A DNA stretch of 64,000 bases from Methanoregula sp. SKADARSKE-2 (lineage in GTDB: Archaea; Halobacteriota; Methanomicrobia; Methanomicrobiales; Methanospirillaceae). Below the pieces are notes generated by a model that was given only the letters and a program-made list of their open reading frames with translations, ran no database searches and was not told the origin of the DNA. The position numbers were made by a program, and so were the translations under genes. Below, piece after piece: positions 15,392-21,839 of the stretch. Numbering within the stretch: the stretch's first letter is position 1; each line of letters begins with the position of its first letter. The DNA is taken from positions 1,178,001 through 1,242,000 of the forward strand of contig CP121470.1 of the NCBI GenBank assembly GCA_030919125.1, in the 5' to 3' direction.

Positions 15392-15808
15392 TCATCCCGC
15401 GGCCGGTATCTGTTGCTGGTCCTGCGCCAGCCTGCGCATCTTCATGAACTGGGCCGTGTGATCCGGTATCTTTGCAATGGCTGCATTCCGGTCCCGCCCG
15501 TACAGGACACCGCGGAGCGCCCTCAGGGAGATCGTGAAGATACCCTTCTGGAAGATCTCGATGTTTAAGGCTTTGCCGGAAGCGGAGACCTGTGCAAGGC
15601 CGCAGGTATTTCCGAGGTAATAGTTCCAGTTCCTTGTTACGTCCTCGACCTGTACAAAGACCTTTCCCGTGACTGCCGCAGCAAGGCTCCGTGTGCGGAT
15701 TGCGTATCTCGCTCCCTGAATGTGGACTTCGATCACTTCGTGGGGAATCCCTTCGCTGTCGAGCGCACTGGCGCCGGACTTCTGGAAATATCCTGCTTTT
15801 TCCATCAT
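15392..15808 (-). CDS. Conserved hypothetical protein
   Basis: The 138-residue product starts MMEKAGYFQKSG and contains predicted beta-strand-rich sequence (EVIEVHIQGARYAIRTRSLA, GKVFVQVEDVTRNW, LNIEIFQKGIFTISLRALRG) and a Gln-rich C-terminus. I recognise no domain. The strand pattern and a YAIRTRSL/ LRGVLYGRD pair suggest a small regulatory or ligand-binding barrel, but that is speculation. It has its own TATA-like box, 112 bases downstream of the nitrogenase-like operon and on the same strand. Confidence 0.6.
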   Translation of the reverse strand: MMEKAGYFQKSGASALDSEGIPHEVIEVHIQGARYAIRTRSLAAAVTGKVFVQVEDVTRNWNYYLGNTCGLAQVSASGKALNIEIFQKGIFTISLRALRGVLYGRDRNAAIAKIPDHTAQFMKMRRLAQDQQQIPAAG

Positions 15809-15849
15809 ACACGACCACCTTCTGTCGTACAACGGAGTCAGCAGGAGAG

Positions 15850-15919: not shown

Positions 15920-17080
15920 TCAGAAGAGTTTCTGAGGGTGGTTCTTCTTCCTATCCCTGCACTCGTTGAGCAGGTCCTCAATGAAGGAGAGCGATCCGCT
16001 GATCCCCGCGATCGTATGGGGAGCGAGCTGTACCCTCCCCCGTATCGGAGGGATCAGGCCGTAAAATCCACGGCCACGGCTTACGGATTGCTCAAACGAT
16101 GACCCGAGTACGAGATCGGGGCGGTAGGTATCGATGAGGCTTTTCACGCGGTTCATGCCGGGTGCATGCACGACAGGAAATCCCGTTCCGGCTGGAGACA
16201 CTACCGCGTCAGGTTCATTCCGCGTACCGATGCAGAGGATCTCTGCATCGAGATAGTTCTTCAGGGTGCGGGCCGCAAAGAGCGCGTAAGAACAACCGCT
16301 GAAGATTGCGACCGTCGGGGGATCCGATCTCCGGAGGAACTTATCGCAGGCAGCCATTACCCGCTCCTCCTCGCCTTCAGCTTCTCTGATGACCGGATCG
16401 ATATCTGAGTCCTCAAACTTCCGTCCGATAATCTCAAATGTCCGTACGATTTCATCGAACCCGAGTGTCCCGCCAAGATACTCTCCGACCCCGCTTCTGA
16501 AGTCGCCATTTGTCCCGATGGTATGCAGAGCCGCATCGCTCACATTGTCTGCCCTGTCTGCACAGAAGACGGTTCCCACCGGAACCGCTGCCATGGCAAG
16601 AAGCCGCCGGATCTCCCGGACGTTTCCCCGGTAAAACGGATCGAAGAGACAGGCACCATCGATGTTGATCCCGGGGGTCTCCGGGTTGACGGAGGGGGTC
16701 AGGCACTCAAGGGCCTTCCGGTACCCGGCCTCGGCATCCCCGGAGAAACCGGGGCTGTCAACGAGAAGGACATCTTGGGATGCCAGCATCGACGGGATAT
16801 CTTCCCCGAGAAGAGCGGGAATGCAGGTGGTTATGATCGCAATCCGGTTGGAGGTCCCTTCGAGTCCGTCAATGACCTCACGGATCCGTTCGTCGGAGCC
16901 GAAGATCACCTCATTCTCGAGAATAAACGTCCCTTCGAGGGGCGCATGGAGGAAGGTTGTTGGGTAATAGTAGCAGCCGCTTGAACCGTGAATCACGACC
17001 GTGATGCCTTCGAACCCCGCGAGACACGCTGCAGCGCCCGTCATCGCACAGGGCCAGATTGGTTTGTCGCACTCAGGCAT
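15920..17080 (-). CDS. Nitrogenase component 1-like subunit B (NifK-like), group IV type
   Basis: The 386-residue product aligns by eye with the N-terminal and central parts of NifK. Cys11 (WPCAMTGAAACLAGFEG) corresponds to the NifK Cys70 region, Cys36 to the GSQGC motif (here HGSSGCYYYP) and Cys86 to the TTC motif (ITTCIPALLGED), so P-cluster-type ligands are kept. The C-terminal Rossmann region is shortened compared with NifK (about 520 residues). The start MPEC overlaps the preceding stop (ATGCCTGA); a 15-residue longer start is possible. It is the last gene of a NifH-like / subunit A / subunit B operon. Substrate unknown; it could reduce a tetrapyrrole, a sulfur compound or something else. 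Confidence 0.8.
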   Translation of the reverse strand: MPECDKPIWPCAMTGAAACLAGFEGITVVIHGSSGCYYYPTTFLHAPLEGTFILENEVIFGSDERIREVIDGLEGTSNRIAIITTCIPALLGEDIPSMLASQDVLLVDSPGFSGDAEAGYRKALECLTPSVNPETPGINIDGACLFDPFYRGNVREIRRLLAMAAVPVGTVFCADRADNVSDAALHTIGTNGDFRSGVGEYLGGTLGFDEIVRTFEIIGRKFEDSDIDPVIREAEGEEERVMAACDKFLRRSDPPTVAIFSGCSYALFAARTLKNYLDAEILCIGTRNEPDAVVSPAGTGFPVVHAPGMNRVKSLIDTYRPDLVLGSSFEQSVSRGRGFYGLIPPIRGRVQLAPHTIAGISGSLSFIEDLLNECRDRKKNHPQKLF

Positions 17081-18137
17081 GAATAGTACACCTCCACCGG
17101 TGGAGGAGACGCCGCACTCCCGCACTCCCTACAGGGGGAGAGATCGGCAGCGGGACCCTGATCCCTCCGGCTCCCGGTTTCAGCGCGAGGCGCCGGACAA
17201 GTTCTCCGGCAACGAGAAGGGCTTCCGGGCTTCCGGGGCTGCTCTCCATGAGGATCTCCGAGCCTGCAATATCCTGGAACCCTGCGAGGATCTCCCGCTG
17301 GATCTCCTCCTCCCGGTCTATGGCACCCTCACCGGGAACCCCGCACCCGTCTGCAACGCTCTGCAGGAACCCGATCGTCCCTTCAAGGCCGGCCGGGTAA
17401 GAGATGACGTAAGGAGTCCCGAACCGCTCTTTGAGGAAGTCACCGACCGGGCGGAGTTCCTCATCCCGGAGGATGTTCAGCCGGGCCATTCCAAGGCGGG
17501 AGAGATCCTGAAGCGTACAGTTCCGGATACATCGGACATTGACCCGGAGATCCAGCCCGTCAAGCAACCGGCAGACCTCGGCATAATTCTCCTCAACCTC
17601 GAATTCGAGATTTTTTTCACCGATAATATTGACGCAGGGACCCATTGCGCGGGAGGCAGCCGAATCGGCACGGCGGGACGGGACAGTGGCTGCGATCGCA
17701 CAGAGAGCCCTGTTCATGCCGTCCTGGAACGTTCCCCCGAGAAAACCTGCGGTGGGAACGCGGATGATCGGTACCCCGTAGTCCCGTCCGCAGACCTCCT
17801 GGACATCATCTCCTATCGTATCGACAATGCAGGTGGTAAGGACAAACACCGCTGCCGGGTCCTGCCGAGCAACGGAGGTGAGCACCCCTGCCAGCGCTTC
17901 CTCACCGCCAAAGATGATCTCCGTCTCGGCAAGACCGGTCGAGATGATCTCCGGCAGGATCAGCTCGCCGTTGTCGAGGCCTGTTGTATGCAGAAGGGAA
18001 AAGTTGTGGTGGGCACAGCCCTTCGGGCCGTGCACGACCGTTACCGCATCCCGCACATGCGTTGTTGCGGAGAGGGCCCCGGTGAGAGTACAGCCGCCGT
18101 GCCTACATGAATTCGATTGCAAGGGCCTCAAGTTCAT
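17073..18137 (-). CDS. Nitrogenase component 1-like subunit A (NifD/CfbD-like), group IV type
   Basis: The 354-residue product has three positions expected for cluster ligands: Cys16 ([10 protein letters not shown]), Cys41 (HGPKGC) and Cys103 ([11 protein letters not shown]). The FeMo-cofactor ligand Cys275 of NifD (NILHC) is replaced: the matching segment reads LNILRD, Asp225. The protein ends about 100 residues before the usual NifD C-terminus, so no counterpart of His442 is present. It therefore cannot bind a nitrogenase cofactor in the known way. The ends overlap both neighbours (35 bases with the NifH-like gene, 8 with subunit B), so start choice is uncertain but co-translation is clear. 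Distinct in motif detail from CfbD, which is normally single. Confidence 0.8.
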
Positions 18138-18915
18138 CGTACTCGATCGGGGTCGGGACCGTAAGATGGGTATTCTCCATGACGCGCTGTGCGAGCGACC
18201 GGTAGCAGTCGGCCTGCGAGGATCCGAACTCGTACTCGATCACGGTCTTCCGGTTGAGCTCCGCCATCTGGACGGTCCGGCTCCGGGGGATGAACTGCAC
18301 CATCTCGCTGTTCACCCTTCGCGCAAACTCGGCAACGAGTTCCTCTTCCCGGCTCTGGCCTTTCGCATTGCAGATAACGCCGGCAAGCCGGCACCTGCTC
18401 TTCGGCCGTATGGAGAGGCGCTGGATGGCCTTGCAGATATTGTTCGCTGCATAGAGCGACATGAGCTCTCCCGAGGTCACGAGATAGATCTCCTCTGCGT
18501 ACCCTTCCCGCATCGGCATCGCAAACCCGCCACATACGACGTCGCCGAGGACATCGTAGACGATCACATCCCCTTCGAGAGCGCCGTGCTTCTGGAGGAT
18601 CTGGAAGGTCGCGATGATCCCGCGTCCCGCACACCCGACCCCCGGTTCAGGCCCGCCGGCCTCGACGCACCGCACACCGTTGAATCCGGTAAAAACAATA
18701 TCCGCACGCGAGATCTTCGCTTCGCCCTGATTTCGGAGGAGATCCATCACGGTCGGGATGAGCTTCCCGTGCATCAGCATCCGGGTACTGTCGCGTTTGG
18801 GATCGCACCCGATCTGGAGTATATCAAGTCCCCTGGCCGAGAGAGCTGCAGAGAGGTTTGCCGATGTCGTGGATTTTCCGATCCCTCCCTTGCCGTACAG
18901 GGCGATCTGTTTCAT
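18103..18915 (-). CDS. NifH-like ATP-dependent reductase (nitrogenase iron protein family; CfbC-like)
   Basis: The 270-residue product carries the P-loop [10 protein letters not shown] (8-17), [10 protein letters not shown], the cluster ligands Cys95 ([13 protein letters not shown]) and Cys128 ([14 protein letters not shown]), and [10 protein letters not shown], all as in NifH and CfbC. Such homodimers pass low-potential electrons with ATP hydrolysis to a component 1 partner; the two downstream NifD/K-like proteins are the evident partners. Three consecutive ATG codons follow AAGGT; the third (18915) has the best spacing and matches the family start [11 protein letters not shown]. If the genome has no other cfbC, this protein could also serve coenzyme F430 synthesis. 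Confidence 0.88.
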
Positions 18916-19001: not shown

Positions 19002-20459
19002 CTAATCGGGCCGACGGAGCAGGGCCATGATCAGCATGATGACCGGTATGACTTCGAGCCTCCCGAGCCACATCACCCCGATGAGGATCCCTTTCGAGAC
19101 ATCCGGCATATCCGGAGAGACAAAACCCGTATTGAGACCCACGGTCGAGAAGGCCGAGACCACACTGAAGACAACCTTGGTCATCGAGAAGGAGGTGTTG
19201 CTGAACTGGAAGATGCAGAGCGTGGCAATGAAGATGGTAAGAACCGAGAGAATTACGACGAGCATGTTCTTTGCGGCTTCGAGTTCTGCGGTCGCTTTCG
19301 GGATAACCCGGCCTTCAATTTTGAAGGGGATGAGGACTTTTCCCGTGACGTAAAGCCGCTGGAACCACCAGTACAGGGCCCGGAACGAGAGGGCAACACG
19401 GCTGAGTTTGATCCCGCCGGCCGTGCTCCACGAAGCCCCCCCGATAAACGCAAGCATAGCGAGGAAAAGGATCGTTACGCTCGCCCAATTGCCGAGATTG
19501 GTTGTCTGGAATCCGGTCGTGGTGAGGGTGGAGACCGCCGTGAAGACTCCCTGCTGGAGAGCAGGCAGCACATCGAGATTTGCAAAAAAGAACAAGTCGT
19601 AGCTGAGAACCGCGATGCCGATCGCGAGGAAGAGGAAGAAAAGCCGGATCTGTTCATCGCCAAAGAGACTCAGTTTCTTGTTGTCGATGATAAGGAAGTA
19701 CAATTTGAAGGGGAGGGCGCCGGCTATCATGATGGGGATGAGAAGAAGTTCCAGCAGGAAGTTGTGGTAGAACGGTATCCCCCCCTGGTGGATGACAAAA
19801 CCCCCGGTAGAGATTGCTGAAAGCCCGAGATTGACCGATTCCCAGAGCGGGAGCCCGGTAAAGAGGATCAGCCCGATTGCCATGAAGGTGAGCAATCCAT
19901 AGATCTTCCAGAGAGCGCGGCCGGTGGCGATGGCCCCCGGCATCAGGGACTCTTCCCGGCTCTCGGTCCGGAACATTTTGGACCGGGAGAGTCCGGTACT
20001 GCTCCCCAGCGTTATCGCAAAAGCAATTATCCCGATCCCGCCGATCCATTGCATGAAGGTCCGCCAGAAGAGAAGCGTGTGCGGGGCGGTATCCACCGAC
20101 GGGATCAGGGTAAATGCGGTCCCTGTCCACCCGGCCATTCCTTCGAAGAGTGCATCGGTCATCCCCATATGCAGGCCGAGCATGAACGGGAAGCTGCTCA
20201 CAACTGCACAGGTGAGCCAGAAGAGTGCGACGGAACACATCGCGGTCGAGAGCCGGCTTCCCCGCTCGCTTCGCGGAATATTTTCAAGAAGGGTACCGAG
20301 GACAAAGAGGGAGACCGGCACGGTCGCCATCGGGATGAACATATCCCACTCACCGGAGATGAGGGAGACGAGGAGCGGGATGCAGGTGACCGGTGCGGTT
20401 AAGGTGAATATGTCGCCGAGATCGGCGATGATGGTGAAGAGGTGCTCGCGCCGGTACAT
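19002..20459 (-). CDS. trkH: TrkH/KtrB-type potassium transporter membrane subunit
   Basis: The 485-residue protein is highly hydrophobic and has the four pore-loop pattern of TrkH: GWTGTAF, LSAISTGGF, STLTTTGFQTT and SAFSTVGLNTG near the pore helices, with FMQWIGGIGIIAFAI following the first. TrkH forms the K+ pathway and is usually gated by a TrkA/KtrA-type RCK protein; no trkA is adjacent, so the partner is elsewhere. The protein ends in LLRRPD, and the gene stands alone on the strand after fprA. Confidence 0.92.
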   Translation of the reverse strand: MYRREHLFTIIADLGDIFTLTAPVTCIPLLVSLISGEWDMFIPMATVPVSLFVLGTLLENIPRSERGSRLSTAMCSVALFWLTCAVVSSFPFMLGLHMGMTDALFEGMAGWTGTAFTLIPSVDTAPHTLLFWRTFMQWIGGIGIIAFAITLGSSTGLSRSKMFRTESREESLMPGAIATGRALWKIYGLLTFMAIGLILFTGLPLWESVNLGLSAISTGGFVIHQGGIPFYHNFLLELLLIPIMIAGALPFKLYFLIIDNKKLSLFGDEQIRLFFLFLAIGIAVLSYDLFFFANLDVLPALQQGVFTAVSTLTTTGFQTTNLGNWASVTILFLAMLAFIGGASWSTAGGIKLSRVALSFRALYWWFQRLYVTGKVLIPFKIEGRVIPKATAELEAAKNMLVVILSVLTIFIATLCIFQFSNTSFSMTKVVFSVVSAFSTVGLNTGFVSPDMPDVSKGILIGVMWLGRLEVIPVIMLIMALLRRPD

Positions 20460-20575: not shown

Positions 20576-21760
20576 TCAGGTGATGTTGATCGACTTGTGC
20601 CTTGCGAGGATATCATCGGCGAGCCGCTCGATCGCCTGCAGAGCCACCTCATCCGGGGCCCCCCTCACGGTTACCGGTTCAAGTACCTCGACCTTGACAT
20701 GATCGAGCATCTTTACAAGCGTCTCCGCGGTCTTACCCCCCCAGCCATAGGAACCGATGACGGCAGCGAACTTTACCTTTGGTTTGAGGAGGTTGGTCAG
20801 GTAGGTGGCGTACAGGGCCGAAGGATGCGGGCCAAATAAGACGGTAGGGGTTGCAACCACGATGGTGGCGCAATCGACAAGCGCAATCGCAAGTTCACCG
20901 ATGTCGGTCTTCGTGAGGTTGAACGGCCTCACGGTGATCCCCCGCTCGACGAGTGCGTTCGTGAGGTGTTCAACCATCCGGGCCGTGCTCCCGTGCATGG
21001 AGACGTAGGGTATTACAACTTCGTTCCTGACGGAGTTGGAGACCCAGTCTGCATAGGCATCGAGCATAAGTGCCGGCCTCCGGTGAACTGGCCCGTGGCT
21101 GGGGGCGATCATGTCGAGAGGAAGCGCACCGACTCTCTCCAGGTATCCCTTGATGCTGGACCGGAATGGCATCATTATCTCTGCGTAATACCGCTTCGCA
21201 GACCGGTAAACTTCCGCCTCTTCCCCGACAAAGAGATCGCTCTGCGCAAGATGGGCGCCGAAGAGATCGCAGGGGAAGAGGATCTTATCCTCGCGGAGAT
21301 AGGTGAGCTGAGTCTCAGGCCAGTGTGTCCAGGGCGTGATCAGGAATTCAAGGGTCCGATCGCCAAGAGAGAGAGTCTCGCGATCCTTGATGCTCTTCAC
21401 CCGCTCGAGGGGGATGTGGAGGAGATCGGAGAGGAAATCCCTGCATTTTTCATTGGTCACGACCGTGGCATCCGGGAAGAGTTCGAGGACCATCGGGAGG
21501 GATCCCGAGTGATCCTGTTCGGCGTGGTTGATGATGATGTAGTCAATCCGGGTGATGCCGAGCTTGACGAGGTTCGAGATGAGTTCAAACTCCTTGGTCG
21601 GATCGACAGTATAGATAAGGGCGGTCTTCTCGCTGCCCTGGATAAGGTACGAATTGTAGCTCGTCCCGTTCGGGAGGGGGATCAATTCATCGAACATTCT
21701 CCGGTCAAAATCGACTGCACCGACCCACGAGACTCCGGACTTTAATTCCTGTGTCACCAT
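20576..21760 (-). CDS. fprA: F420H2 oxidase / A-type flavoprotein
   Basis: FprA in methanogens reduces O2 to water with coenzyme F420H2, a cytosolic oxygen defence. The 394-residue protein has an N-terminal metallo-beta-lactamase domain with the di-iron motif HAEQDHSGSLP (about residues 79-89), PWTHWPETQLTY, and FPCDLFGAH. The C-terminal flavodoxin domain opens VIPYVSMHGSTARMVEHL and contains VIGSYGWGGKTAETL. The ATG at 21760 is preceded by AAAGGAG at ideal spacing, so a GTG nine bases upstream is rejected. Confidence 0.93.
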   Translation of the reverse strand: MVTQELKSGVSWVGAVDFDRRMFDELIPLPNGTSYNSYLIQGSEKTALIYTVDPTKEFELISNLVKLGITRIDYIIINHAEQDHSGSLPMVLELFPDATVVTNEKCRDFLSDLLHIPLERVKSIKDRETLSLGDRTLEFLITPWTHWPETQLTYLREDKILFPCDLFGAHLAQSDLFVGEEAEVYRSAKRYYAEIMMPFRSSIKGYLERVGALPLDMIAPSHGPVHRRPALMLDAYADWVSNSVRNEVVIPYVSMHGSTARMVEHLTNALVERGITVRPFNLTKTDIGELAIALVDCATIVVATPTVLFGPHPSALYATYLTNLLKPKVKFAAVIGSYGWGGKTAETLVKMLDHVKVEVLEPVTVRGAPDEVALQAIERLADDILARHKSINIT

Positions 21761-21839
21761 CTTTAGCACTCCTTTTTGAGGAAAATTACGGATAAATCGT
21801 ACCAGAATCGCAGGATGAGTTAAAATAAGTATTCAAAAA

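Follow-up and report, generated by a model that had tools for sequence, protein, structure and literature searches.

An uncharacterised nitrogenase-like enzyme, real and conserved, is encoded by three genes, here called H, A and B, and this system is fixed across the archaeal order Methanomicrobiales, well beyond the genome analyzed here. H is a NifH-type ATP-dependent reductase, while A and B are component-1 subunits of the NifD/E-like and NifK/N-like types, respectively. Apparently, this is a case of one NifH-type reductase with two different catalytic partners, and A/B, rather than fixing nitrogen, is probably a second reductase that modifies a cofactor. A search of open-access papers turned up no account of this pair, which is specific to the order.

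The locus lies in a window of 64 kb (C1:1178001-1242000; the whole stretch of DNA that was analyzed) from a genome of 1.95 Mb in one contig that is ~95% complete and whose nearest named relatives are Methanoregula and other Methanomicrobiales. All three genes are on the reverse strand and run head to tail: H at 18103..18915 (PF00142, 358 bits; 18918 and 18921 are further ATG starts in frame), A, of 354 aa, at 17073..18137 (PF00148, 172 bits) and B, of 386 aa, at 15920..17080 (PF00148, 119 bits), with overlaps of 35 bp between H and A and 8 bp between A and B. An earlier, sequence-only reading of this DNA had described three overlapping genes with no nifI, nifB, nifE or nifN in sight; its coordinates are exact and the window holds zero nif genes. 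Downstream of B, at a conserved position, lies c7 (15392..15832, reverse strand), which encodes an uncharacterised protein of 146 aa with no match in Pfam or NCBIfam. Upstream of H, on the same strand, are genes for a TrkH-type potassium uptake protein (19002..20459; PF02386, 170 bits) and an FprA-type flavodiiron protein (20576..21769; PF19583 and PRK11921). Each of these is a neighbor in 18 of 30 loci, FprA being accompanied in some by a desulfoferrodoxin, and TrkH is a conserved neighbor that stands outside the enzyme itself. In four genomes of one family the gene directly after B, encoded on the other strand, is of the NifX type (PF02579; L098:8843-9415, with a corresponding place in L099, L100 and L105). 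The H-A-B order is contiguous in 28 of the 29 other loci drawn across Methanomicrobiales, the exception (L094) having B inverted and ~2 kb away, and across genera A and B are ~40-67% and H ~67-83% identical to the proteins of the window. This conservation of the proteins together with the contiguity of their genes establishes the locus as real and no chance find.

Our genome-wide statements are based on family searches with PF00148 and PF00142. The latter recovered H and three weak matches, all three under the family cut-off, and H is the only NifH-family protein of the genome. It scores 410 bits against the NF033200 model for F430_CfbC, over the cut-off of 402, and 383 bits against the nifH model, under the cut-off of 394. 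Besides A and B, the PF00148 search recovered a single gene, that of CfbD (498 bits; TIGR03282 cut-off 268), which resides elsewhere in the genome in a cfbA-cfbE-cfbD-cfbB operon, with all four genes over their cut-offs but without cfbC. Thus, the search for separate cfbC and cfbD genes that had been proposed with the sequence-only reading has a clear outcome: cfbD is found in that operon and no separate cfbC is found in the genome by the PF00142 family search. Since F430 synthesis requires CfbC (PMC7242693) and H is the sole protein of its family, H would, by elimination, also have to serve as CfbC, a conclusion that is well supported by these sequence comparisons. In 11 other Methanomicrobiales genomes that are at least 95% complete the single NifH-type match is in each case the H ortholog. 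The earlier notion of a self-contained three-gene enzyme has, accordingly, to be given up: as the sole NifH-type protein, with a score over the CfbC cut-off, H is held in common with CfbD. Near the cfbA-E-D-B operon of this genome there are also transposase-like reading frames, IS630-type by eye (L112:4227-5329, reverse strand).

In the free tree H forms a clade (support 100/99) that lies near NifH and is separated from the CfbC encoded next to cfbD in other orders, and its identity is 51-60% to NifH of nif operons and 46-51% to CfbC. H also illustrates that such a gene can resemble nifH in a genome without a nitrogenase. In AU tests neither the grouping of H with the cfbD-adjacent CfbC (p 0.087) nor that with NifH is rejected. 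These relationships suggest that H may have displaced an older CfbC in the order, which we word as a suggestion because the AU test leaves H with CfbC unrejected.

B orthologs, taken as matches of at least 373 bits (the next best match has 107 bits), occur in 81 of 394 genomes of the phylum, all of them Methanomicrobiales and from six families, and among the euryarchaea sampled in this set none was found outside the order; for bacteria, coverage consisted of plasmids and of a scan by peptide pattern that recovers close relatives. In the family of the window A is present in 82 of 100 genomes, and the 18 without it are mostly from a Methanospirillum-like genus (g12), which we infer to be Methanospirillum, with the remainder from genera g2 and g6 and three others (two poorly complete). 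In g12 and g6 the locus runs from FprA through TrkH or a phosphoribulokinase-like gene to H and then c7, such that exactly A and B are absent between H and c7 and the rest is in the same order. Such retention of H upon loss of A/B is what is expected if H is CfbC and A/B a separate, dispensable partner. The lineages without A/B still carry the genes for F430 and methyl-coenzyme M reductase (MCR), and NifB and McrC are present both with and without A/B. We therefore set aside a necessary role of A/B in NifB- or MCR-dependent processes. A role in oxygen defense, for which the association with FprA and desulfoferrodoxin might speak, was likewise rejected: this synteny is real but stays with H after the loss of A/B, leaving nothing that is A/B-specific. 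Genus g2 (L160, G001) lacks A/B and has a NifH-type protein that is 52% identical to H and outside the H clade, with no cfbD within its short locus.

To compare the functional sites of the subunits, the A and B proteins of 30 loci, one of each from every locus, were aligned with Nif, Mar and further nitrogenase-like sequences. C16, C41 and C103 of A and C11, C36 and C86 of B occupy the P-cluster columns in 30 of 30 loci, B having in addition a near-invariant Cys4. The sequence-only reading had thus rightly recognized three P-cluster-type cysteine positions in either subunit, as well as both cluster cysteines of H, and had proposed that Cys275 of NifD, the cofactor ligand, is replaced by Asp225. 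The loss of the ligand is confirmed, but the position was one residue off: the column, in which every NifD, NifE, Mar and X1 sequence used has Cys, is occupied by Arg224 in all 30 A proteins, with the acidic residue (D/E225) next to it, again in all 30. Its further claim, that A lacks the C-terminal part with His442, is borne out both by the length of A, which at ~350 aa ends before this region with most of domain III missing, and by its AlphaFold2 model (pLDDT 82.8), in which domain III is a short strand-helix remnant; A terminates in a conserved RRMLHRWRR tail. The model of B (pLDDT 83.5; both models are of single chains) has the complete three-domain fold. In Foldseek comparisons the two have as neighbors the NifEN, NifDK and DPOR folds, A being nearest to NifE, NifD and BchB (TM ~0.65) and B to VnfK, NifN and BchB (TM 0.74-0.84, with BchB at ~0.8). 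Judged by these features, an A2B2 complex could bind a cluster at its interface, but would lack the known means of ligating a FeMo- or L-cluster.

With median distances of 0.56 and 0.57, A and B evolve at about double the rate of H (0.28), and the distances of A and B correlate with an r of 0.81, more strongly than with any other gene tested. The rapid evolution, along with the truncation of A and the sharing of H with CfbD, would be compatible with an A/B pair that has no substrate of its own and acts as an accessory of CfbCD or as a CfbC-binding regulator that senses redox state or nitrogen. However, none of the 30 loci has lost any of the six cluster cysteines, A and B co-vary and the pair persists in six families; as together these indicate a working electron-transfer site, we consider a non-catalytic function improbable.

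Phylogenetic trees, a quick one of 121 rows and a careful one of 55, agree in placing A and B in clades of their own outside NifD/E, NifK/N, MarD/K, Bch and CfbD, so that, on the phylogenetic check that had been proposed, neither falls inside a characterised clade. By AU tests the grouping of A with MarD is rejected (p 0.003), as is that of A+B with CfbD (p 0.017), whereas a sister relation to NifD/E is a borderline case for A (p 0.051) and one to NifK/N is not rejected for B (p 0.33). The best matches among known families are NifE for A and NifK/NifE for B, with scores far under every curated cut-off. With a NifH-type reductase and a component 1 that is without the full set of FeMo-cofactor ligands, the system falls in group IV (Nfl), and the ligands, trees and AU tests are in agreement with the heteromeric group IV component 1 lacking FeMo-cofactor ligands that had been read from the sequence; family searches also found no complete nif set elsewhere in the genome. 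In the careful tree A is the sister of F1 (100/99), a link that the quick tree leaves unresolved, and B that of F2, with weak support (80/84).

F1 and F2 are uncharacterised proteins of which Dos Santos et al. 2012 (PMC3464626) make mention, F1 being a NifH-NifE fusion and F2 its NifN-like partner. F1 is like A in missing Cys275 and having an adjoining Asp, whereas F2 has one interface cysteine against the three of B. The F1/F2 operon (L193:3484-6977, L199:4494-7945, L200:5820-9379 and L229:4167-7456) is accompanied by Btu/Fec-type (BtuF/FecCD/ABC) transporter genes in 4 of 4 genomes examined, and is flanked in three Methanospirillum-like genomes by CobN- and/or BchD/Cob-chelatase-type subunits and in one Methanosarcina-like genome by a CbiK-type chelatase. 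With such transporters and chelatases, F1/F2 looks like part of a tetrapyrrole or corrinoid system, and this nearest relative of A/B is most likely a tetrapyrrole enzyme. A/B itself is not a member of the F1/F2 clade, as its H gene is separate and B has three cysteines; the relation is that of sisters only.

Given an electron donor that is the reductase of F430 synthesis, a sister clade associated with chelatases and the loss of the cluster ligand as in known tetrapyrrole reductases, we posit, tentatively and at somewhat less than even confidence, that H/A/B is an ATP-driven two-component reductase acting on a tetrapyrrole, probably an F430-related one, with H being CfbC. In the mechanism that we envisage, the H homodimer with its single 4Fe-4S cluster would dock alternately on the CfbD homodimer, for F430, and on an A2B2 heterotetramer; hydrolyzing ATP, it would feed electrons to a P-cluster-like Fe-S cluster where A and B meet, to which either subunit contributes three cysteines, and from there the electrons might pass to a substrate in the vacated FeMo-cofactor site, A2B2 having no cysteine-ligated FeMo- or L-cluster. 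Here the A2B2 stoichiometry, the type of cluster and the substrate are what we infer; for the last, a tetrapyrrole is most likely, probably one that carries nickel and belongs to the F430 family. The step should be accessory or variant-forming, and dispensable in Methanospirillum, because lineages without A/B keep their F430 and MCR genes; as these lineages still make F430 and methane, the product would be other than F430 itself. Against a tetrapyrrole substrate speak the weakness of the B-F2 link and the difference in their interface cysteines, and also that DPOR and CfbCD have 4Fe-4S clusters only (PMC12552129) and not the 3+3 cysteine set; no tetrapyrrole genes adjoin the H-A-B locus itself. 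A bolder form of the proposal, for which we see rather little chance, is that A/B is a new CfbC-dependent tetrapyrrole reductase that makes F430, or a further nickel tetrapyrrole, in a variant or repaired form not recognised so far, and that its reductase displaced the ancestral CfbC.

Methanomicrobiales are major methane producers of wetlands, sediments and digesters. A nitrogenase-like enzyme that is present in nearly all of them and in no other sampled euryarchaeon, and that is linked to F430 via a shared reductase, is a concrete lead to a step, around F430 or MCR, that has yet to be described. In this context, modified F430s are known from methanogens, but the enzymes responsible for them have still to be found (PMC11411713).

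Finally, we compare the system with its characterised relatives. First, A/B resembles the NifEN maturase in being a heteromer whose A subunit is nearest to NifE in both sequence and fold, with B like NifN/VnfK. This likeness, together with the presence of NifB without nif genes, the 8Fe-9S-C-like clusters of the MCR activation complex (PMC12176620), the NifX-type gene just after B in the four genomes of one family and the oxygen-stress setting suggested by the upstream flavodiiron and desulfoferrodoxin genes, would be in keeping with a NifEN-like scaffold that passes the NifB product (the L-cluster) to that complex, or with an ATP-driven electron donor for MCR reactivation. Nevertheless, we regard this as unlikely: the cluster cysteine of NifE and NifD is Arg in all 30 A proteins and most of domain III is gone, NifB and McrC also occur in genomes without A/B, the oxygen-defense neighbors remain with H after A/B loss and methanogens outside this order activate their MCR without having A/B. 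Membership in NifEN proper was rejected, with A at 115 bits against a nifE cut-off of 505, the L-cluster cysteine of NifE absent and a separate clade in the trees. A solitary component-1 protein of ~400 aa, its partner absent, was also observed (L215:7930-9117, reverse strand; L232:6450-7700, forward strand; L206, L207, L218, L219 and L231); its best match is NifE (144 bits), and it has all three interface cysteines and a clade of its own (100/99) and is close to cfbD in two genomes.

Second, wetland methanogens encounter methylated sulfur compounds, and A/B could conceivably be a small-molecule reductase, either of the methylthio-alkane reductase type that cleaves C-S bonds or with another non-tetrapyrrole substrate. 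MarDK, which has a P-cluster, is likewise a heteromeric group IV component with 3+3 cysteines, but its ligands Cys270 and His429 (PMC12552129) are without equivalents in A. This absence and the rejected clade of A with MarD exclude A/B from MarDK; as the conserved neighbors include no recognised genes of sulfur metabolism and Mar-like operons are separate in relatives (L201, L234), a function of this kind appears quite unlikely. One of those loci, from the genus of the window (L234, G004:C1:2061500-2081000), has three Mar-like component-1 pairs and one MarH-like gene within 20 kb.

Third, the Mo, V and Fe nitrogenases (NifDK, VnfDK, AnfDK) share the P-cluster cysteines with A/B, but they were rejected in that Cys275 and His442 are missing, the clades are separate and nifEN is absent. 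DPOR (BchLNB) and COR (BchXYZ) are, like A/B, heteromeric and without FeMo-cofactor, but DPOR ligates its cluster by Cys/Asp rather than by 3+3 cysteines, and the best score of 67 bits against a Bch cut-off of 490 argues against membership. Fused NifH-NifE forms and heteromeric nitrogenase-like proteins without cofactor ligands had been noted before, among them Mlab_1039/1040 with a 2+1 cysteine pattern unlike the 3+3 of A/B (PMC3464626). As for CfbC/CfbD, H would have to serve as CfbC and CfbD is, like A, without the FeMo-cofactor ligand, but A (44 bits) and B (30 bits) are far below the TIGR03282 cut-off. The sequence-only reading had set the system apart from the usual single-gene CfbD: A/B is indeed distinct, a two-gene component as opposed to a single-gene homodimer, but it does not replace CfbD, since a genuine CfbD is encoded elsewhere in the same genome in the cfb operon.
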